32,987 nt of DNA, taken from a virus. The position numbers and the translations under genes were made by a program. This document shows positions 558 to 27,710 of this stretch, piece after piece. Below the pieces are notes generated by a model. It was not told where the DNA came from. It saw only the letters and a program-made list of their open reading frames with translations, and did no database searches. Position 1 is the stretch's first letter. Every line of letters starts with the position of its first letter. The stretch lies in the IMG/VR virus record IMGVR_UViG_3300025082_000038, positions 1 through 32,987 of that record; one strand, given 5' to 3'.

Positions 558-1997
558 TTAAGAAATTCCAGTATTCGTCATTTCAACGAATGCGCGAGAG
601 TCAAGAAGTTCGCCATCAACGCGTTCTTCAACTCGTACAAACGTGAGATTATTTTCCCATGCACTTGTGCTCGCAACCGTAGCTTCTGTCGTTGTATCAA
701 CAGTCATCTTCATCTTATCACCGATGTAGTATGCACTAAGGTCTCCAAAGAAAATCTTACTTGACGCAAGATTATTCTGCTCAAGAACAGGAGCACCAAG
801 GATCCGTTGAACAGGCTTGTTCGTAACTACATCATTAGCACCATTAGAATCAAAGATCGGTCGATTATTACTATCTAGGATACCAAGAGATGCACTAATT
901 GTTCGTCCGTTCATGATCCATACTGCTCGTCCACTCTCTCGATATGATTGTGGGAGTCTGTAATAGACATCTAAGAAATCTCCATAATCCAGTGAGAAAT
1001 TTGCATCTACCGTTGGAACATTAGCTGCAGTATCAATACCTGTTGGCTGTGCTGCACCCGTTCCAACCATGAATGCGCGATCCTCTTCACGAGCAATTGC
1101 CTCAGCAAACTGTCGCGTGAGTAGAGGGATAACTGCCGTTGCACTGTCTTGCAATAGTTCGAGTGAAACACCCTGAATTGCAGAAAGTTTATATGGCGTA
1201 AGAGATCCCTGGTTCAATGTTAGAGAAGTCGTAGACTTCGAAACATTCTCACCAGTCCAACTCACTTGTGGACGTCCAACTACCTGGTTGAACGCAAACG
1301 TTGCACCTGGTCCTGAAAGATCAATGATCGTTGCACGCGGTCGAATGACAGCTGCATCATTAGCAATATCAATCAAAATGTCGGTGAGAATTGTAGGTAC
1401 TAAGAATCCACCGTCTGCATTTGTACCAACAACCATTGGCTCCAACTTTGTCTCTAGCTGATCGTAAAACTTCTCAGCATTTGAATGATGCTTGGTAGCG
1501 ATTGCACCAAACCATTTAGCAAGAGTTTCTACATTACTCTTCTCCATTTCGATGGTTTCACCTTTAGAATTGTGGTGAATTTTGACCATCTTTTCTACAT
1601 GTTTAATGTCACCTGACATTTTCTCTTTTTTTACCTTATTAGCTTTTGTTGCCTGTTTCTTTTTAGAAATCTTACTAGCAACTGATTTTGTAATGGAAGC
1701 TGTTACTGATTTTGTAACCTCATCAGAAATCTCTTTTACAATTTCTGAGCGAAGTTGCTTTTCTTCAGCTTCATCTTCCTTTTCTGAAGTTTCCTCTTCA
1801 GGTTTCTCTTCAGCCTCTTCGGCTTCGTCCTCACCTTCTGATTCTTCTTCTGCTTCCTCTTCAGAAGCAGCTTCTTCTTCAGCAGCCTCTTCTTCGACTG
1901 CTTCTTCGGATACTTCTTCTTCAGAAGTTTCCTCTTCAAGGACTTCCTCTTCCTTTTTGTCCTCTTCTTTTAGTTCTTCTTTCTTAGCTTTAGCCAT
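558..1997 (-). CDS. HK97-fold major capsid protein with long acidic N-terminal scaffold region
   Basis: This is the phage major capsid protein, 479 aa. Residues 1 to about 80 are an extreme Glu-rich coiled segment, followed by a Lys-rich stretch (about 85-125). The HK97-type capsid domain starts around residue 150, with features such as NADGGFLVP, the ISxSL-like central region and a conserved C-terminal segment with RVEERVDGELLDSRAFV. The N-terminal part corresponds in position to the HK97 delta (scaffolding) domain, normally removed by the prohead protease encoded just upstream at 1999. The ATG is preceded by an A/T-rich leader (AAATAAT) without a Shine-Dalgarno. The acidic run leaves a long serine-rich shadow ORF on the other strand. 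Confidence 0.93.
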   Translation of the reverse strand: MAKAKKEELKEEDKKEEEVLEEETSEEEVSEEAVEEEAAEEEAASEEEAEEESEGEDEAEEAEEKPEEETSEKEDEAEEKQLRSEIVKEISDEVTKSVTASITKSVASKISKKKQATKANKVKKEKMSGDIKHVEKMVKIHHNSKGETIEMEKSNVETLAKWFGAIATKHHSNAEKFYDQLETKLEPMVVGTNADGGFLVPTILTDILIDIANDAAVIRPRATIIDLSGPGATFAFNQVVGRPQVSWTGENVSKSTTSLTLNQGSLTPYKLSAIQGVSLELLQDSATAVIPLLTRQFAEAIAREEDRAFMVGTGAAQPTGIDTAANVPTVDANFSLDYGDFLDVYYRLPQSYRESGRAVWIMNGRTISASLGILDSNNRPIFDSNGANDVVTNKPVQRILGAPVLEQNNLASSKIFFGDLSAYYIGDKMKMTVDTTTEATVASTSAWENNLTFVRVEERVDGELLDSRAFVEMTNTGIS

Positions 1998-1998
1998 A

Positions 1999-2511
1999 TT
2001 ATTTGTATAGACTATTTAGTATCTTAATTTTCTTTTGTGTTCTACTTAATTGCTTCTTACTAATTTCCTTTTGGAATGATTTATATTCCCTTGAAAGCAA
2101 TGCTTGAGGATTAGCAGGTACATTTACTACAGAAATCTCAATCAATTCTGACTCTGTAATGGTCTCATTCTCTCTTTCCCGTGGGATAAAGCCAATAGAG
2201 AATGAATTCAAAAATCCACCCTTCATTAAATCCCTTACTTTCTTTGCAAATGGATTCTCATCTACTGCAAATTCAGCATCAAACTCTAAACCTTTCTCAC
2301 TCACTCTGACATCTGTGACCTTCCCAATAGGGAGACCATGAATATCATGCGACCACAATAGCTGTGGGTTCTTCAAAAAGTTCATTAATTTAATACCCAT
2401 TGGAGAAACAATATCTCCATCTCGATCAACATCTGGTGTCGATCCTAATCCTCCAGTCAACTTATTTCCGTCTATGCTTTTCGTATAAGCTGATTGATAT
2501 TTTGTATTCAT
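1999..2511 (-). CDS. HK97-type prohead protease (peptidase U35)
   Basis: Serine protease that matures the capsid during head assembly. Visible family features, numbered from the ATG at 2511, are an early TGGLGSTPDVDRDGD strand region, His55 in LLWSHD, Ser105 in FSIGF and the LIEISVVNVPANP segment with Glu125, matching the His-Ser-Glu arrangement of HK97 gp4. The gene sits between portal and capsid, the standard order. An in-frame TTG at 2526 would add five residues; the ATG is preferred only because it is the commoner start codon, since neither has a clear ribosome-binding site. The Lys-rich C-terminus may be a self-cleaved tail. Confidence 0.9.
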   Translation of the reverse strand: MNTKYQSAYTKSIDGNKLTGGLGSTPDVDRDGDIVSPMGIKLMNFLKNPQLLWSHDIHGLPIGKVTDVRVSEKGLEFDAEFAVDENPFAKKVRDLMKGGFLNSFSIGFIPRERENETITESELIEISVVNVPANPQALLSREYKSFQKEISKKQLSRTQKKIKILNSLYK

Positions 2512-2596
2512 AACAAAAATAGGCAATCAATTAACTTGCTCGCCTACTCAAGTATGGTCAAACTACTTTAAATATAGATTGTATACCTTTTATCTG

Positions 2597-5500
2597 TCAA
2601 GAGAAGCCAGGCACTACAGGCAACAGATCACATCTACAATTACTAGACACTATGCTATTGGCGATGTAAGATGTACTTAAAGATTCAATATCATACACAT
2701 AATTATGAAATGGCAGGACCTCGATACTAACCAACTTTGCACTCTCTATAATTCTGGACATTCCTTGCAAAGCCTCGCTAATCGCTTTGGTGTTGATCGA
2801 GGAACTATTCGACGTCGCCTTACTAAAGCGGGTATTATAATTCGCAGTATCTCTGAGGCGAATAGATTGATGATGCGCAATCGCACTGTCATTGATCACC
2901 GACAAAATACTGCTGCCGCTCATGATGCCATCCGCGGCAAGATTCAAAGCGACGAGCACAGAGAAAAGATCGCTCGGACCAGAGAAATTAAGGGACTTGG
3001 TATTTCTCCTATTGAGATTAAAGTTAGAAAACTTTTTGAGAAAAGAGGATTCCAGGTTATCCCTCAAAAGGCCATCGGAAGATATAACGTCGATCTCGCC
3101 TTGCCCAAATTCTCCATCGCCGTGGAAATTTTCGGTGGTCACTGGCATACTACGAGCCGTCACGCCCTCAGACACCAAAAGCGCACTAAATATCTCCTCA
3201 ATGCTGGCTGGACTGTTGTAATCGTCTGGGTTACCCGTGACTATCCCTTTGATGTTGCTGCTCTTAAGTATATTATCACCCTTACGCAATCTATTAGCAG
3301 TTCTCCATCCGTTAGATGTAAGGAGCATATGATTAGGGGTGACGGACAACTCAGTTCCATCGGCAAAAAGAAGTTTAAAGATGTCGCCTGAATATTTAAA
3401 TCGAGTTATTTTCGTTGCATCTGGCGATACAAATTTAGTATCTCCTGTAACACAATTTGGATGTAGAGGTGGTCTTTCAATAGTTGTATAGCTCACAGGC
3501 AATAATCCACCTTCATTTCCTACTACTTCATCCCCTAAACTCCAATACTTTCCACTAATTGGAATCACTTTCCCTTGCATTGGGATACACCACTGACATG
3601 CACCAGGATTAGTGAACCATTCTTTAAACTCAATCCCAGCATCTTTATATATTCTTTCGTTTGCCCATGTCGTAACCCGTGTTAGCTCTGATCTAGCAAT
3701 CCTTTCTGCCCGTACCTTATCCGCATGTGTAAAGATTTCTGATACTCTCTCTCTTAACTTCGGGAGAGAATCTCCTTCTTTAATCCCTTCTCCCAAGGAT
3801 TTTGCTACTGCACTATTAGTATCCTTTGTCGTTTCCTTAGCAAATTTATTGATTGATCGTGTTAAGAACCCTACAGGATCTGTCTCATCTAGAGTTACGG
3901 GTAGGTTAAATAACTGAGCAGTTTGATTACCATTTCTAACAGCAACACCAATAAAACTAAGCAAAAGAATACTAGTGAAAATCTCAGACTCCTCATCAGG
4001 ATCCAATTGAATATCTTCAATATCCGTTCTAGCAAACTTCTTTCCTTCGAACCCTGCCAATGCTCTTTTTTCTTGGTCATTGAAGAGTTTCTTTAGTTTC
4101 TTTGTGAATGTAGGGGTTTCTCGTCTTATTTGTTTCTCCCTAATTTCCCAAATCTTTAACTTGGACTCATCGGAGAAGCTACCCTTTTTTTTTTGATCCT
4201 TGCTCTCACAAGGTTTCTTACACGTACTGATTGCTATTGCTGCTGCCTGACTCTGTTCTAATGTCGGGTCTTCTTTCATTATCTCTGGTATCTTTCGATT
4301 CACACACGCACCTTGCGTCTCATCGGACATTCTACAGGCAGGGGATTTCTTCTTTGGCGCCTTCTCTTCTACAACCTTTTTAATCTTCTTTTCTGTCTTC
4401 TTCTTTCTTTTCTGCAATGTCTTTACAACCTCTTCTTCAATCAAATCATACTCAGTTCTATACTTCTTCTGCATATTGAATTCTCTCTTTCGTATCATCT
4501 TCTCTCCTTCTTCTGTTTCAGGTACAGTTGATGATCCAACCTCTACAAGATTAAATGGAACTAATAGAGAATCAGCACCAGCTACTTCAGTAAATCCTTC
4601 CGTTAATCTAACTTCATTTCGCGTCAACCAACCATCTTTTAACCCCTCACTATATAGTGCTAATTTCTGATCTTGATCTTCAGGTGTTAGATCATCAAAA
4701 TCAAAGAAAAGATTATCCTGGAAATCAACTGCTATTAATTGTTCATTAATAGTTCCTACAATCTTCTTCATAAAGGGTGTGATTGTTTCCTCAAGGAAGA
4801 TACGTTTTGATGCATCTGCATTTGCTCTATTCACATCCTCAACTAATCCCAACACTGCTTTTGGAACTCCGTACATTGCTAGAATTGAATCACGAGAGAA
4901 TGTTCTCTGATTCATAAAGTCCATATCCATGTGTGTAGAACCAATAGGATTGAGCTTTGTTCCTTGTGGAAGAATAGCTAGTTTATATGCATTTACCTCA
5001 CCACGATGGTTATTCTCAAACTGTACCTTCAAACGATCGAATGCATCCTGATCAATCTTATGTTCTGTCTCTAATGCCATGTGAGGCTGCGCACTATTCT
5101 GAAAGAATCTCCAGTTCCACTTCCTTGCCTTCTCTTCTGTTGCAATATCAAGAGATGCAGCTCTAACTGGGGATGCTCCTCTAAACTTCTTCATTGGGTC
5201 TGGAAAGCGGAAATAGACAATATCTTCTGCATCAAATGGTACTTCTAACCCTGTCTCTGGTATTTGATAGACATATCCTGCAATAAACTTCTCCTTCCCT
5301 GGAATGATCTTCATTCTATCTGGGGATAACCAGGGGAAAAGTTCTACAACTTGTCCTCTCTCATCTCGTACTTTCCACCAATATGCCTCTCCAACTAACT
5401 CCATAAATGTTGCAGTTAGTTCAATGAGATCATAATAAGTCATGAAATCATTAGCTCTTTGAAGTAAATCAATGACATCGTGCTGCATTACTTCTTCTAC

Positions 5501-5788
5501 ACCAGATGAGCGTTTCTCAAACAGCTTTAAATCTACCCCTGCTGAGGTAGTTGCAATCTTACGCACACAGGCATATACCCAACCCTCATATGCAGCTAAT
5601 TGTTCCCGTGCATTAGGATCACCCATCTGCTCAGATGAAAACATACTCGGTGTACCAAGTGCCTCCAAGGATGGTTCTGTGATCTTCTTTTCTTCTATTT
5701 GTACTTTTTCTACGGGTTTTTCCGTTTTTTCCTCTTTTGGAAGATATTTTTGCAAAAAGTTTGCAATATAATCGTCTACGCGGCCCAT
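2597..5788 (-). CDS. Portal-MuF fusion protein interrupted by an intein
   Basis: A 1063-aa precursor. Residues about 50-430 form an HK97-type portal (for example the segments around EGWVYACVRKIA, FQNSAQPHMAL and MYGVPKAVLGLVEDVNRANAD). Next come a Lys-rich linker and a short Cys-containing motif (about 485-530, ACVNRKIPEIM and AAAIAISTCKKPC) of the kind often seen in phage head proteins. From about 550 it is a MuF-type head morphogenesis domain ending in PPLHPN. Residues 779-1050 are the intein (2639-3454) and the final 13 residues (CRCDLLPVVPGFS) are the C-extein. Splicing would give a 791-residue protein with the conserved MuF motif HPNCRC restored. Portal forms the DNA-entry dodecamer; MuF is a minor head component. 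Fusion of the two in one gene is uncommon. Confidence 0.92.
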   Translation of the reverse strand: MGRVDDYIANFLQKYLPKEEKTEKPVEKVQIEEKKITEPSLEALGTPSMFSSEQMGDPNAREQLAAYEGWVYACVRKIATTSAGVDLKLFEKRSSGVEEVMQHDVIDLLQRANDFMTYYDLIELTATFMELVGEAYWWKVRDERGQVVELFPWLSPDRMKIIPGKEKFIAGYVYQIPETGLEVPFDAEDIVYFRFPDPMKKFRGASPVRAASLDIATEEKARKWNWRFFQNSAQPHMALETEHKIDQDAFDRLKVQFENNHRGEVNAYKLAILPQGTKLNPIGSTHMDMDFMNQRTFSRDSILAMYGVPKAVLGLVEDVNRANADASKRIFLEETITPFMKKIVGTINEQLIAVDFQDNLFFDFDDLTPEDQDQKLALYSEGLKDGWLTRNEVRLTEGFTEVAGADSLLVPFNLVEVGSSTVPETEEGEKMIRKREFNMQKKYRTEYDLIEEEVVKTLQKRKKKTEKKIKKVVEEKAPKKKSPACRMSDETQGACVNRKIPEIMKEDPTLEQSQAAAIAISTCKKPCESKDQKKKGSFSDESKLKIWEIREKQIRRETPTFTKKLKKLFNDQEKRALAGFEGKKFARTDIEDIQLDPDEESEIFTSILLLSFIGVAVRNGNQTAQLFNLPVTLDETDPVGFLTRSINKFAKETTKDTNSAVAKSLGEGIKEGDSLPKLRERVSEIFTHADKVRAERIARSELTRVTTWANERIYKDAGIEFKEWFTNPGACQWCIPMQGKVIPISGKYWSLGDEVVGNEGGLLPVSYTTIERPPLHPNCVTGDTKFVSPDATKITRFKYSGDIFKLLFADGTELSVTPNHMLLTSNGWRTANRLRKGDNILKSSNIKGIVTGNPDDYNSPASIEEIFSALLVSEGVTARSMPVTTENFHGDGEFGQGEIDVISSDGLLRDNLESSFLKKFSNFNLNRRNTKSLNFSGPSDLFSVLVALNLAADGIMSGSSILSVINDSAIAHHQSIRLRDTANYNTRFSKATSNSSSINTKAISEALQGMSRIIESAKLVSIEVLPFHNYVYDIESLSTSYIANSIVSSNCRCDLLPVVPGFS
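2639..3454 (-). mobile_element. Intein in the MuF domain (272 aa), antisense to a homing endonuclease gene
   Basis: A self-splicing protein element. Block A is CVTGDTKF with Cys1, block B is GTELSVTPNHMLL with the TxxH His42, block F is YVYDIESLSTSYIAN and block G is IVSSN followed by Cys+1. The terminal Asn is at 2639-2641 and Cys1 at 3452-3454. The usual penultimate His is replaced by Ser, a variation tolerated in some inteins. No LAGLIDADG or HNH endonuclease is encoded in this frame. The middle (about residues 60-245) looks unlike any intein domain and instead mirrors the plus-strand endonuclease gene. The insertion point, between Asn and Cys of HPN|CRC, is a conserved site, typical of intein homing. 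Confidence 0.88.
2705..3391 (+). CDS. Vsr-like homing endonuclease encoded antisense within the intein
   Basis: 228-aa DNA-binding nuclease. An HTH lies at about residues 8-45 (SLQSLANRFGVDRGTIRRRL), a NUMOD3-like segment at about 78-95 (SDEHREKIARTRE), and a Vsr/DUF559-type PD-(D/E)XK fold at about 100-185, with Asp130 in YNVDLALP, Glu141 in AVEIFGGHWH, His146/148, and the GW...VW strands. Related Vsr-like endonucleases are known as homing enzymes near split inteins. The gene lies wholly inside the intein on the opposite strand with codons exactly in register. Its start codon is opposite the His that opens block F and its stop codon is opposite intein Ser22. Two 60-base lines inside it are 50-53% GC against 33% in a neighbouring line, consistent with transfer. 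No Shine-Dalgarno or clear promoter is visible. Confidence 0.88.
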   Translation: MKWQDLDTNQLCTLYNSGHSLQSLANRFGVDRGTIRRRLTKAGIIIRSISEANRLMMRNRTVIDHRQNTAAAHDAIRGKIQSDEHREKIARTREIKGLGISPIEIKVRKLFEKRGFQVIPQKAIGRYNVDLALPKFSIAVEIFGGHWHTTSRHALRHQKRTKYLLNAGWTVVIVWVTRDYPFDVAALKYIITLTQSISSSPSVRCKEHMIRGDGQLSSIGKKKFKDVA

Positions 5789-8380: not shown

Positions 8381-9979
8381 TTAAGTATAAAGTTTCCAAA
8401 GCAGAAGTTTTGATTTCCATATATCTTCAGGCTTTTTCATTTTTGGTGCATGGCGAATCGCATGCGCTATTGCCTCCTCTACATACTTATGATTGATTCC
8501 AACCTCCCCACATTTAACTCGTATATCTTGACTCATTCCTCCATACCATTCGATCCTCTCATTAAACATTCCAATTGATGCAACATCCTCCTTATGTACA
8601 GCACTAAAGTTTTCTATGAATGTTCTCTTATTAGAAGGCTTTCCCTTCACTTGTTTCTGACCAAAATTCCATTGTTTACTATCTGTATTTTCTACAAACT
8701 GCATTACTGCATTCTCATCTATCTTTAACCGATCATCTACAAATACTAATAACTTTCCACGTGCCTCTATTATTCCTCTATTTCTAGCTTCTGCAAGCCC
8801 ATATTTAGGATTCTCCTGCTTTATATATTTAATTGATAAAGAAGATTGATTCCTAAATTCTTTCACTACATGCTCTGTATTATCATCTCCGTCATCAATT
8901 ATAATTAGTTCAATATTTTTGTATGTCTGATTCTCTATAGATTGTAATATTTCTCCCAATGTATCAGCACGATTGCATGTTGGAAGGATTACGGATATAC
9001 GTTTTTGTAATCCATGCCTTATGTTTGAATAAGCATAGTCATAAAGAATTGCCATCTTTTCTTCTGAATATTGCGTCATTGTCTTCCTTGCTTTGCGTCT
9101 CATTGCTTCTTGTAAGTCTTTATCCTCCATCACCATTTTCAACTTCTGCTCAAAATTATCATCATTAAATAAAACTCCATTATCCCCATCCTTAATTAAA
9201 TCTCTCGCCATTCCTTGTTCAGTTGCAAGAACTGGCACACCTCGTGCCATTGCTTCTAATAACGGAAGGGTCCCTGTTTCATATTCACTAGATGAATACA
9301 TGACAAATACAGACATCCGTTCATATAACCTATTTTTTGCCTCCCAGCTATTCATTTGCCCTCGTCCCACACCACCTTGGAAATCTAATGTTTCATCTTT
9401 AAGATATTGCTGGACTTCATCCTGAAAATACTTTGGTTTATCAATATACCCTGATCCAATTACTTTATATCCAAGATTCTTTGCTCCAGCACAAACCTTA
9501 TGAATATTTTTATGCGGTAAGATTCTTCCTACATATCCAACACTCTTTTCATCATCATCACGTTTCTCAATATAAGAGAATTCATCAAGATCCAATCCAT
9601 GAGGAATCTTATAAACAGGGATTTCACTAGGAGTTAATTGTTGAGCGCCATAATTAGTTGGAACTATACTAGCAGCAAAGTATTCACTCCAATCTTTCTT
9701 TTTTAAATGCTTATGATTATGATGTGTGACAATTCCTGGTATTTCTCTCAGTTCTTTACATAATTCTGCTAATTGCCATCCACTATTCCAATATTGAGCA
9801 TGCCAAACATCTATCGTATGTTCCCTTAAAATATTTTGTACTTCCTGCACTGCTGGCGCCACATTACGTGGATGTGCATATACAATAAAGAACTTATGCC
9901 GATCATTATATTTGACAATGCTGCCAACTAAATTATTTATTGCCCAATCAGGACAATCAACGACAATTAAGATTTTCAT
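8381..9979 (-). CDS. Bifunctional glycosyltransferase: GT4 fused to GT2
   Basis: 532 aa. Residues about 1-320 form a GT4 enzyme (AQYWNSGWQLAELC, VGYVGRILPHKNIHKV, and the donor site SSSEYETGTLPLLEAMARGVPVL). Residues about 330-532 form a GT2 (GT-A) enzyme (ISVILPTCNRADTLGEIL, IELIIIDDGDDN, LVFVDDRLKID with an acidic pair replacing the usual DXD). Such fusions usually add two successive sugars to one acceptor. It is the largest enzyme of the block. Its ATG follows the 57-aa gene by a single base. In the GT2 half, the region after the acidic pair is short compared with free-standing enzymes. Confidence 0.9.
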   Translation of the reverse strand: MKILIVVDCPDWAINNLVGSIVKYNDRHKFFIVYAHPRNVAPAVQEVQNILREHTIDVWHAQYWNSGWQLAELCKELREIPGIVTHHNHKHLKKKDWSEYFAASIVPTNYGAQQLTPSEIPVYKIPHGLDLDEFSYIEKRDDDEKSVGYVGRILPHKNIHKVCAGAKNLGYKVIGSGYIDKPKYFQDEVQQYLKDETLDFQGGVGRGQMNSWEAKNRLYERMSVFVMYSSSEYETGTLPLLEAMARGVPVLATEQGMARDLIKDGDNGVLFNDDNFEQKLKMVMEDKDLQEAMRRKARKTMTQYSEEKMAILYDYAYSNIRHGLQKRISVILPTCNRADTLGEILQSIENQTYKNIELIIIDDGDDNTEHVVKEFRNQSSLSIKYIKQENPKYGLAEARNRGIIEARGKLLVFVDDRLKIDENAVMQFVENTDSKQWNFGQKQVKGKPSNKRTFIENFSAVHKEDVASIGMFNERIEWYGGMSQDIRVKCGEVGINHKYVEEAIAHAIRHAPKMKKPEDIWKSKLLLWKLYT

Positions 9980-15492: not shown

Positions 15493-15805
15493 CTACTTCA
15501 TCTGTCTTATAAAAACCAATCTCTTGCTTTGGCATTCCATCAACATAATTCATTATTAATTTTAATGCTTGACTATCTCCTTCACCGATTGCTTTTTGTA
15601 GCAATCGTCTAATAAATAAAAGTTTCCATTCCTCTTTTTGCCCCTCTGGTTTGTTTTCTAGCTCTTCTCTAAGCAATTCTGATAAAACTAAATTCTTTGG
15701 TCTACCCTTTGGATTTCCACTTATTCCAGGCATATATCTTCCTTTTTCATCCCTTCCTGTTTGTTCCTGATTATCACGTTCTATGTTTTTCTTCTCTTCA
15801 CTCAT
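15350..15805 (-). CDS. terS: Putative terminase small subunit (DUF5681-like)
   Basis: 151 aa. The N-terminal part contains GRYMPGISGNPKGRPKN, the signature of DUF5681 proteins found next to large terminases. The centre is helical (LSELLREELEN, LLQKAIGEGDSQALKLIMNYVDG). Position immediately upstream of the large subunit supports a DNA-recognition role in packaging. It is coupled to the methyltransferase gene by an ATGA overlap, and its 3' end overlaps the large-subunit gene in another frame. Confidence 0.8.
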   Translation of the reverse strand: MSEEKKNIERDNQEQTGRDEKGRYMPGISGNPKGRPKNLVLSELLREELENKPEGQKEEWKLLFIRRLLQKAIGEGDSQALKLIMNYVDGMPKQEIGFYKTDEVDEAIDRHKEIIEQIRGGIGFPLRIGEGEIGIEQEPTTDIPGDSNKGV

Positions 15806-16989
15806 ATTTTTTCTGCCTTACTCCCCGTATAATCTTCCCATCTTTTCACAATAACATCTATATATTTAGGGTCTAATTCCATCATATAACATTTTCGTCC
15901 TAACTTCTCTGCTGCTATGAGAGTTGTGCCAGTACCCCCGAACACATCTATTATTGACATTTTCAACTGCGTAAAATTCTTTATCACCCAGTCACATAAC
16001 GCTACAGGCATAGTAGCGTTATGTATCTTTGTATTTTTATTATCTTTCATTGCAGATGATGTTTCAATAAAATTTGCTACAGTGCCTCTAAACTCACTTG
16101 TATTTATTGATCTTTTGTTTTCTTTACCCAAAATCCATATCATCTCAATCTGACTATTCATTACGTTTGCAGCCATTGCAGGTGCAACCTGCGACTTTTT
16201 CCAAAATGCAACATCACACACATAGTTATTTACTTCTGCAAGATGCCGAATTATATCGTGCTTATTGTTTGCCAGCATCTGAATATTATTGAATACATAA
16301 CGACTATATTTAAGAGCGAGTAATACCCAATCCGTAAGAAACTGATCATAGTTTTCTATATTATCTCCAGACCCATCGTATTTGTCGTTTTTGTTTTTAT
16401 ATCCTAAATTATGACCCACGTTATACGGCGGACTTGTAAATGTTATATCAGCCTTCTGTCCATCCATTAACCGCTCAACATCCTCAACCTTTGTAGCATC
16501 ACCACAAAGCAATCTATGTTCTCCTAGCTTATATAAATCCCCTAACTTTGCTATTGGCTCTTTTGGTACTTCTGGCACTTCATCATCCTTTTCTTCTGCT
16601 GTAACCAATAAATCAAATTGTTTTGATAACTCATCTAAATCAAATCCCCAATCTGTTAATTCATCTAACTCAAAATTATCTGATAATGCTGCAAAATCCC
16701 ACTCTCCTATGTTCTGATTAAACCGTACGTTTAACTCCTTCTCCTCTTCCTTTGTTAAAGGTCTATCTGGAATCGATACCCGTACTGTCTCATATCCTAA
16801 CTCCTTCAATATCTTTATTCGTTGATGACCACCTATTATTGTCCCATCTGTATTAATTGCTATTTCCTGGGCCTGTCCAAATCTATCTAGGCTTGCTTGT
16901 AGAGCTTCCTTTTGTTTTTCCATCAATTGTCGTGGATTATATTCAGCAGGTACTAAATCATTAATACTGCGTGTTTCTGTCATCCACAT
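15802..16989 (-). CDS. ParB-like domain fused to DNA methyltransferase
   Basis: 395 aa from the ATG at 16989, which has GGTGAGG 8 bases upstream; an ATG at 17007 would add six residues. The first 90 residues are a ParB/Srx-like domain (LVPAEYNPRQ, IGGHQRIKIL). A middle linker follows, and then an amino-methyltransferase with catalytic TSPPYN before the SAM-binding DVFGGTGTTLIAAEKLGR. That motif order is the beta class, and SPPY occurs in N4-cytosine and N6-adenine enzymes. Such fusions are frequent beside phage terminases. Likely roles are protection of phage DNA from restriction or marking of packaging sites. Confidence 0.9.
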   Translation of the reverse strand: MWMTETRSINDLVPAEYNPRQLMEKQKEALQASLDRFGQAQEIAINTDGTIIGGHQRIKILKELGYETVRVSIPDRPLTKEEEKELNVRFNQNIGEWDFAALSDNFELDELTDWGFDLDELSKQFDLLVTAEEKDDEVPEVPKEPIAKLGDLYKLGEHRLLCGDATKVEDVERLMDGQKADITFTSPPYNVGHNLGYKNKNDKYDGSGDNIENYDQFLTDWVLLALKYSRYVFNNIQMLANNKHDIIRHLAEVNNYVCDVAFWKKSQVAPAMAANVMNSQIEMIWILGKENKRSINTSEFRGTVANFIETSSAMKDNKNTKIHNATMPVALCDWVIKNFTQLKMSIIDVFGGTGTTLIAAEKLGRKCYMMELDPKYIDVIVKRWEDYTGSKAEKI

Positions 16990-17008
16990 GATCTTTTCCT
17001 CACCCATC

Positions 17009-26156: not shown

Positions 26157-27710
26157 CTATGTTCCTTTATTTCGTAATTGCAAGTTCCTATCAATTGTAT
26201 CTTCTACAACTTTTACAAGAGCTGCAAGATCATCTTCGGATCGAACTTGTGGATTATTAAAATTCACTTCTACATTCATTCCCTGACCACGTGCAGGATT
26301 AATTACTATCTCTCCAGGGGTAAGCATTGCTGGGACTGAATCACGATTTACACTTGGCCCTGGAACTACCCCACCATTCGCAAATGCCATTATTCCATTT
26401 GCTGTAACTACACCTCCTGTATTTCCTCCCGTTACACTATCTACAATACTTTGCCCTACTCCTGCTGAAAAATTAAATGATTGATTTACAATATCACCAA
26501 GTCCCGCGAATGCATCTCGTACTTTTTCAGGGATTGAAAGAAAAGCAGCAATAATAGAATTTACTTTATCTTGAACAACAGAACGCGCAATTTCCAAGTC
26601 AAATTTAATTGCATCTCCAATTCCATTAAATGATGCAACTGTATTATCTACTGCAGTATTTATTGATATTAATCCCCCAACAATAGTAACAAATATGTCA
26701 GCTGCAATAACTAATGCATCTACTAAAATCCCAATTTTAACTGCCCATTCTGATGCTCCTTCTACGGCATCCTCCCAATCAATATTAGCAATTAATTCTA
26801 TAATCTTATCTACAGCAGGTGATAGAGATTCAGCAATTGCTTTCCCCAAATTCTCTAATGCTGCTTGCCCTTCTTCCGTATTTGAAAATTCTTGGAATGC
26901 TTTTACTCCTTCAATCATCCCTTCGATTAATGGAGCAAGGGCATCTAAAAATAATGATCCAAAAGCAACCTCAAGGTCACGACTTAATTCCTTCAATGAC
27001 TTTAATTTCTTTCCTGCAGTTTCTTGTGCTTCGCTATATGCTCCTGTAAATCCTTCAGCTTGTTCAAATATTATATTGAGCAGTTCTTGCTGTTGCAATA
27101 ATGCTTTTTCTTTACCAGTTACTCCATCCAATTCATCTCCTAAACGAGAATTTACTTCTGTCATACTCGTAAAGATCTGGACATCTTTTAATAAAGCAGG
27201 ATTTAAAGTATTGATTGCTTCTAATAAAGTTCTTAATGCATCCGCTGAACTTTTATTCGATACAATACCGACATCACGAGATGAATTTACTAAATCAATA
27301 GCATCTTGCTCATCTAATTGTGTAACAATAAGAGTTTTTAAGATTTCATTAACATCGACCATTGATTTGCCACTTTCAATCAATGTATCTGTAACAGATT
27401 GAAGAAATTCATCAGTCACGCCAAAATTCTCCGCTAATACTTCTACTGCAACAGATGTAATTTCTGCTTCTGCCGCAGCCTCAAATGAACTCTTTGTGAA
27501 ATCAGCTAATGACGTTGCTGCAGTTTTAATTGCAGTTTTAGCTGTATCCCAAATAGCATTACCAAGAGCAACTGCCGTTGTTAATTGCCCAACTCCCATT
27601 GCAGACTCTTCTGCAGCAGATTTTGTATCTTCTAAAGTAGAATTAAAACTATTTAAAACTTTTGATGCTTCATCTTTTGCTATTAAACGTATTTCTACTT
27701 CAGAGGCCAT
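26157..27710 (-). CDS. Tape measure protein
   Basis: 517 aa, helical throughout (VEIRLIAKDEASKVLNSFNSTLEDTKSAAEE at the start), with a hydrophobic section at about 325-355 and a C-terminal GG-rich segment MAFANGGVVPGPSVNRDSVPAMLTPGEIVINPARG that is characteristic of tape measures. The length implies a short tail, roughly 75-80 nm at 0.15 nm per residue. It begins directly after the frameshifted chaperone gene, completing the standard order. The ATG has no Shine-Dalgarno. Confidence 0.92.
   Translation of the reverse strand: MASEVEIRLIAKDEASKVLNSFNSTLEDTKSAAEESAMGVGQLTTAVALGNAIWDTAKTAIKTAATSLADFTKSSFEAAAEAEITSVAVEVLAENFGVTDEFLQSVTDTLIESGKSMVDVNEILKTLIVTQLDEQDAIDLVNSSRDVGIVSNKSSADALRTLLEAINTLNPALLKDVQIFTSMTEVNSRLGDELDGVTGKEKALLQQQELLNIIFEQAEGFTGAYSEAQETAGKKLKSLKELSRDLEVAFGSLFLDALAPLIEGMIEGVKAFQEFSNTEEGQAALENLGKAIAESLSPAVDKIIELIANIDWEDAVEGASEWAVKIGILVDALVIAADIFVTIVGGLISINTAVDNTVASFNGIGDAIKFDLEIARSVVQDKVNSIIAAFLSIPEKVRDAFAGLGDIVNQSFNFSAGVGQSIVDSVTGGNTGGVVTANGIMAFANGGVVPGPSVNRDSVPAMLTPGEIVINPARGQGMNVEVNFNNPQVRSEDDLAALVKVVEDTIDRNLQLRNKGT

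Follow-up and report, generated by a model that had tools for sequence, protein, structure and literature searches.

A phage head gene in the window, by which we mean the whole stretch of 32,987 nucleotides of viral DNA that was analysed, contains an intein whose opposite strand encodes a nuclease, and this antisense dual coding of intein and nuclease is real and conserved. The interpretation that we regard as likely is that the insert is a mobile intein with its homing endonuclease written antisense to it, codon against codon; within this interpretation, splicing, cutting, antisense transcription and expression in the window copy are inferred. While an earlier note, made from the sequence alone, treated the arrangement as one odd locus, the antisense nesting has been conserved in phages and prophages of great diversity and represents a widespread class. 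The features of the window locus are as follows.

2597 to 5788, minus strand: fused portal and MuF head-morphogenesis gene, 1063 aa with the intein counted in (Pfam).
2639 to 3454, minus strand: intein of 272 aa, Cys1 to Asn272, in the MuF domain, with HPN on one side and CRC on the other.
3257 to 3454, minus strand: N-terminal splicing subdomain of the intein, residues 1-66, HINT fold (model pLDDT mostly 88-97).
3329 to 3340, minus strand: block B, T39-P-N-H42, the antisense of nuclease residues 209-212.
2750 to 3256, minus strand: intein linker, residues about 67-235, mostly poorly ordered in the model and with weak intein-frame constraint.
Within the linker, minus strand: FHGDG motif, intein residues 110-114; read antisense, it encodes the catalytic stretch of the nuclease around E141.
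2639 to 2749, minus strand: C-terminal splicing subdomain, residues about 236-272, which holds blocks F and G, a penultimate Ser and the terminal Asn.
2705 to 3391, plus strand: ORF of the homing endonuclease, 228 aa, antisense to the intein and in exact codon register with it.
2705 to 2845, plus strand: N-terminal helix-turn-helix of the nuclease, residues 1-47 (profiles, model).
2846 to 2995, plus strand: conserved helical linker of the nuclease, residues 48-97, probably DNA-binding (alignment, model).
2996 to 3304, plus strand: Vsr/DUF559/EDxHD-like catalytic domain, residues 98-200 (profiles, fold, conserved residues).
2681 to 2710, plus strand: antisense of block F, where most relatives have the Shine-Dalgarno sequence and ATG of the nuclease.

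The 1063-aa host protein matches Pfam Phage_portal (7.9e-73) and Phage_Mu_F (4.9e-05), and a lysine-rich, cysteine-containing spacer separates the portal from the MuF domain. Elsewhere, the minus strand of the window carries a gene with two glycosyltransferase domains, of families 1 and 2 (8381-9979), and an N6/N4 DNA methylase gene (15802-17007). The insert in the MuF domain is a complete class 1 intein, as established from sequence, profile and model; protein splicing itself is inferred. Intein_splicing is the only Pfam family matched by the window intein (4.6e-10), and 43 of 44 members of the intein family match it as well. Cys1 of the window, encoded at 3454-3452 on the minus strand, is shared by 107 of 108 aligned loci, and in block B of the aligned loci H42 is invariant and T39 nearly so; block F reads FHNYVYDIES, and the terminal Asn272 is followed by Cys+1. 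The claim of the earlier note that the minus strand encodes a complete intein at 2639-3454 within a portal-MuF gene thus held (motifs, Pfam, model), with one detail corrected: the penultimate residue is Ser and not His. The usual His, which is common but not essential, is absent here, and by automatic boundary calls Ser (46) and His (45) are found in this position among the 108 loci. In the structural model the splicing parts mostly reach pLDDT 88-98 and the linker is largely of low confidence, with residues 80-125 modelled with fair confidence; structural matches of the model are known inteins, the RecA and TliVMA inteins among them.

The product of the plus strand consists of a helix-turn-helix and a Vsr-type nuclease, as profiles and fold show; site-specific cutting by this protein is inferred. 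Pfam matches on the ORF are MTES_1575 (2.2e-09) and DUF559 (2.1e-04), with helix-turn-helix profiles at the N terminus, and MTES_1575 is matched by 37 of the 42 members of the nuclease family. A family profile searched against the PDB retrieved 3hrl (2.1e-05), I-Bth0305I (3r3p; 0.013) and also Vsr, and the AlphaFold model (pLDDT 89) aligned best with Vsr (Z 11.4), 3hrl (10.1) and I-Bth0305I (9.8). Conserved or nearly so in the family alignment are E104, N128, D130, E141, H146, H148 and R160; no residue-by-residue mapping onto 3r3p lies behind the listing of E104, D130, E141, H146 and H148 as conserved. Profile searches of both translations, proposed in the earlier note as a check, thus gave matches on both strands (Intein_splicing; MTES_1575/DUF559), and its description of an intact 228-aa Vsr-like endonuclease with a helix-turn-helix is supported by profiles, AlphaFold model and structural matches. 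By contrast, the NUMOD3-like part that it proposed did not hold, as profile searches found no NUMOD3 match in the window nuclease or in family members; the region in question is helical and conserved.

As the earlier note had also claimed, the nuclease covers most of the intein, including block B: the overlap takes in 229 of 272 intein codons, among them codons 185-228 of the nuclease opposite the N-terminal splicing subdomain (from 3391 downwards), and ends where block F begins. Residue r of the nuclease faces residue 251-r of the intein, with T39-P-N-H42 of block B opposite nuclease residues 212-209; because of this exact codon register, third positions of the intein are first positions of the nuclease, and vice versa. 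The conserved FHGDG-like motif of the intein is accounted for in this way, since the opposite strand of the same DNA encodes the nuclease active site. The antisense frame in the window is open beyond chance; given the gene's own use of Leu and Ser codons, the probability of such an open frame is 3.9e-14. For 88 non-redundant loci, Leu and Ser codon use predicts 692 antisense stops, and not one was found. Elsewhere in the window, a 235-aa antisense ORF (26695-27402, plus strand) lies opposite a 517-aa gene (26157-27710, minus strand), serine- and alanine-rich; the ORF has no Pfam match and is probably due to chance.

Purifying selection keeps both frames, as comparative data show, with the intein frame weakly constrained in the linker. 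Selection was assessed with a four-class substitution test on 16 pairs of relatives, in which every single-base codon difference was classified by its effect, synonymous or nonsynonymous, in either frame, with all possible changes as the reference; the test is limited to codons with a single difference, and the pairs are partly saturated. Where the nuclease overlaps the splicing domain, constraint was 9.1x for the intein and 6.2x for the nuclease; in the core it was 6.2x for the nuclease and 1.98x for the intein linker; and upstream of the nuclease start it was 6.8x for the intein and 2.1x for the nuclease frame. In the single-coding MuF flank, used as a control, the real frame showed 5.3x and the fake antisense frame 0.98x. 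These results were stable at kappa values of 1, 2 and 4 and under bootstrap over pairs.

The weak constraint on the linker leaves room for a rival explanation, namely that only the splicing ends and the nuclease are functional and that the linker is a passive, stop-free readout, such that only the splicing-domain overlap would be truly dual-coding. This explanation is supported by the poor order of the linker in the model and by an intein-frame constraint of just 2.0x, as well as by two loci (L104 and L179) that lose much of the linker and yet keep an open intein frame. Against it, the linker value of 2.0x lies above that of the fake frame in the MuF control, 0.98x (confidence intervals of 1.64-2.41 and 0.81-1.17, respectively, at kappa 2), and therefore the linker does not look neutral; residues 80-125 are, in addition, modelled with fair confidence. 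On balance we lean slightly away from the passive-linker explanation, without being able to dismiss it.

In most relatives, signals for starting translation of the nuclease are written in the antisense of block F. The block F motif HVY[D/N]L[Q/E], or more fully GHVY[D/N]L[Q/E], yields on the opposite strand a Shine-Dalgarno sequence and an ATG (e.g., TTGGAGGTCATAAACATG): Asp/Asn-Leu, encoded as GAC/AAC-CTC, reads GAGG, and His, encoded as CAT, reads ATG. The block-F Leu is encoded by CTC in 81 of 99 His-type loci, against a background of 23.5% (p 2.4e-34), and a Shine-Dalgarno sequence was found in 94 of 108 His-type loci as compared to 16 of 35 non-His loci (p 2.3e-6). A weaker preference for CTC at this Leu is also seen where no start codon is present (15 of 26 loci), and part of the preference may thus not concern the start signal. 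The window copy, with an ATG at 2705 and no Shine-Dalgarno sequence before the nuclease, belongs to the minority without this signal, and expression of its own nuclease is therefore uncertain; a promoter scan of window positions 1900-3700 gave nothing decisive, with six sites versus 5.0 expected by chance. Nuclease expression in the window copy, itself inferred, is the weakest point of the case.

A second rival explanation treats the plus-strand ORF as spurious, a mere shadow cast by a conserved intein, from which no protein is ever made. In-register antisense frames of conserved genes can indeed seem conserved, the window ORF lacks a Shine-Dalgarno sequence, and the ORF is missing from nearly all public annotations examined; in the annotated regions that we examined, the full-length antisense ORF is listed in the PK1 phage record alone, as a hypothetical protein. 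Opposing this explanation are the independent nuclease profile and fold, the 6x enrichment of nuclease-synonymous changes, the start and Shine-Dalgarno signals in relatives, and the PK1 annotation itself, and we consider it very unlikely.

Searches with the nuclease turned up 26 loci in bacterial genomes, 58 in viral contigs and, at E <= 1e-5, 128 phage records; Jersey-type and Gordonia-type nucleases scanned against viral contigs yielded only 1 and 2 loci, respectively. In a set of 110 nuclease loci, which takes in the window's own copies, 108 have an open antisense intein/head-gene frame that is stop-free across the nuclease match, and an automatic boundary rule recovered a complete intein in 104. 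The remaining two, which serve as a control, are Acinetobacter phages with a free-standing nuclease beside an uninterrupted MuF gene and seven antisense stops. In these Obolenskvirus phages (L083, 2327-3220; L073, 455-1348) the nuclease homologue is convergent with the MuF gene, and no intein remnant is visible in its antisense. A MuF match was found in 8 of 10 N-exteins checked. In Escherichia phage BEU35 (L081, 665-1558), an intein of the same type occupies another MuF site about 22 residues upstream (STT/C...N/CRARDG, slashes marking the intein ends).

Approached from the intein side, all 80 loci found with an N-terminal-block consensus carried a nuclease signal; as this consensus was built from nuclease-carrying loci, the 80 do not represent an unbiased sample of MuF inteins. 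The earlier note had proposed that homologues in which one frame is kept and the other is broken would refute the arrangement, and only rare exceptions of this kind were found: in L173 and L175, both among the 80, the intein is open and the nuclease broken, and in L104 (first set) and L179 (intein-side set) the nuclease is shortened and the intein open. A further intein-side locus, L129, has the nuclease in part only. These broken or shortened nucleases beside an open intein are consistent with ordinary nuclease decay. Apparent premature stops in nuclease matches of the second sample were rejected, as they sit at the C-terminal end (model positions 221-238).

The intein is likely mobile and horizontally transferred, a conclusion that rests on exact empty sites and on incongruence between intein and exteins; homing itself is inferred. 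Matches to the MuF gene that lack the insert occur in many Jersey- and Kagunaviruses (505 records, 70 with >= 80% coverage), and comparison of MuF genes with and without the insert, another check put forward in the earlier note, revealed exact empty sites (PPAHPN/CRS) in the three intein-free relatives examined, in a comparison limited to Jersey-/Kagunavirus relatives. Between Snoke (Kagunavirus) and vB_StyS-sam (Jerseyvirus), the intein is 95.7% identical, compared to 62.4% for the N-extein and 79.4% for the C-extein, and the insert is less diverged than the host gene in other pairs also. In Salmonella phage S134 (L196), two unnamed minus-strand ORFs (702-1355 and 1737-2387) lie just upstream of an intein-free head gene.

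A third rival explanation accepts that the nuclease is translated and assigns it a main role other than homing, e.g., attack on competing phages at the same gene or antisense regulation of the head gene. In its favour, a homologue stands free next to the uninterrupted MuF gene of the Acinetobacter phages, and transcription of the antisense strand would work against the head gene. Against it, the nuclease is co-located with the intein at almost every locus, and exact empty sites carry signatures of transfer. We judge a main role of this kind unlikely, while noting that such roles are compatible with homing and do not exclude it.

Under the homing interpretation that we prefer, the head gene would be transcribed and translated straight through the insert, and the HINT domain (intein residues 1-66 and about 236-272) is predicted to excise itself and restore the MuF protein. 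A putative transcript of the opposite strand would serve as a separate gene for the helix-turn-helix and Vsr-fold nuclease, with ribosome-binding site and start codon, in most relatives, written in the antisense of block F. The nuclease would then probably cut the intein-free MuF gene of a co-infecting phage or prophage near the HPNC/RC codons, and repair of the cut may copy the element across, as we infer from the exact empty sites and from inteins that have diverged less than the exteins around them. Points that count against this interpretation are the missing Shine-Dalgarno sequence of the window copy, its Ser in place of the penultimate His, a promoter scan that did not rise above chance expectation, and the weak constraint on the linker. 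The proposal in the earlier note of a mobile, spliced-out invader with a separately expressed enzyme is well supported, by inference, with splicing, cutting and expression all inferred.

A bolder reading, to which we give a modest edge over its alternatives, is that the locus exemplifies a widespread, previously undescribed two-strand (ambigrammatic) mobile element, in which both frames are under selection and block F holds the ribosome-binding site and start of the nuclease. Homing endonucleases in inteins often decay after fixation of the insert. When the nuclease is encoded opposite the splicing domain, the fates of the two are tied together and the nuclease is no longer spliced out within the intein; if the bolder reading is true, selection would act against any loss of the nuclease that upsets the splicing frame, and the nuclease could thereby be protected from its usual decay. 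Many of these loci are hidden under "hypothetical" or "head morphogenesis" annotations, and since several are in cultured Escherichia, Salmonella, Pseudomonas and Gordonia phages, the idea is open to laboratory testing.

In the literature searched we found no account of an antisense endonuclease in an intein, in keeping with the impression of novelty in the earlier note, while prior description is not excluded. Canonical maxi-inteins (LAGLIDADG/HNH) resemble the window element in having a HINT domain, a conserved host gene, a nuclease tied to the loop between the splicing halves, and mobility; in these, however, the nuclease domain is in frame inside the intein polypeptide, and structural work places the endonuclease at a single conserved position inside the intein (PMC6801210), whereas the window nuclease is a separate opposite-strand protein that has its own start and stop and is encoded in part by the codons of block B. 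EDxHD/Vsr-like homing endonucleases such as I-Bth0305I share the Vsr-type catalytic fold with an added DNA-binding module, as well as an association with inteins in phages; these nucleases are discussed in PMC12350094, which cites the "fractured genes" of Dassa et al. 2009. In fractured genes the nuclease gene reportedly sits between two separate split-intein genes, while in the window the whole intein lies in one contiguous 1063-aa ORF that the nuclease overlaps on the opposite strand. MTES_1575/DUF559 nucleases (PF18741, PF04480) have the same catalytic profile and fold, to which the window adds a helix-turn-helix, a helical module and the antisense position relative to an intein. Among published cases, the closest parallel that we found is ShiLan, an insertion that hides an HNH nuclease out of frame and in which no splicing domain was detected (PMC11855218); it likewise places an insert in a phage gene, leaves the host frame open and encodes a nuclease in another frame, but that frame belongs to the same transcript, whereas the window combines a nuclease of the Vsr family, on the opposite strand and in register, with a clear intein. 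Finally, ambigrammatic or antisense overlapping genes (e.g., those of narnaviruses; PMC6884476) also have two long frames on opposite strands. The window differs in that both products come from recognised families and are proposed to work together as a single mobile element; long antisense dual coding with both proteins in known families is rare, and it is this membership that makes the constraint on each protein measurable.
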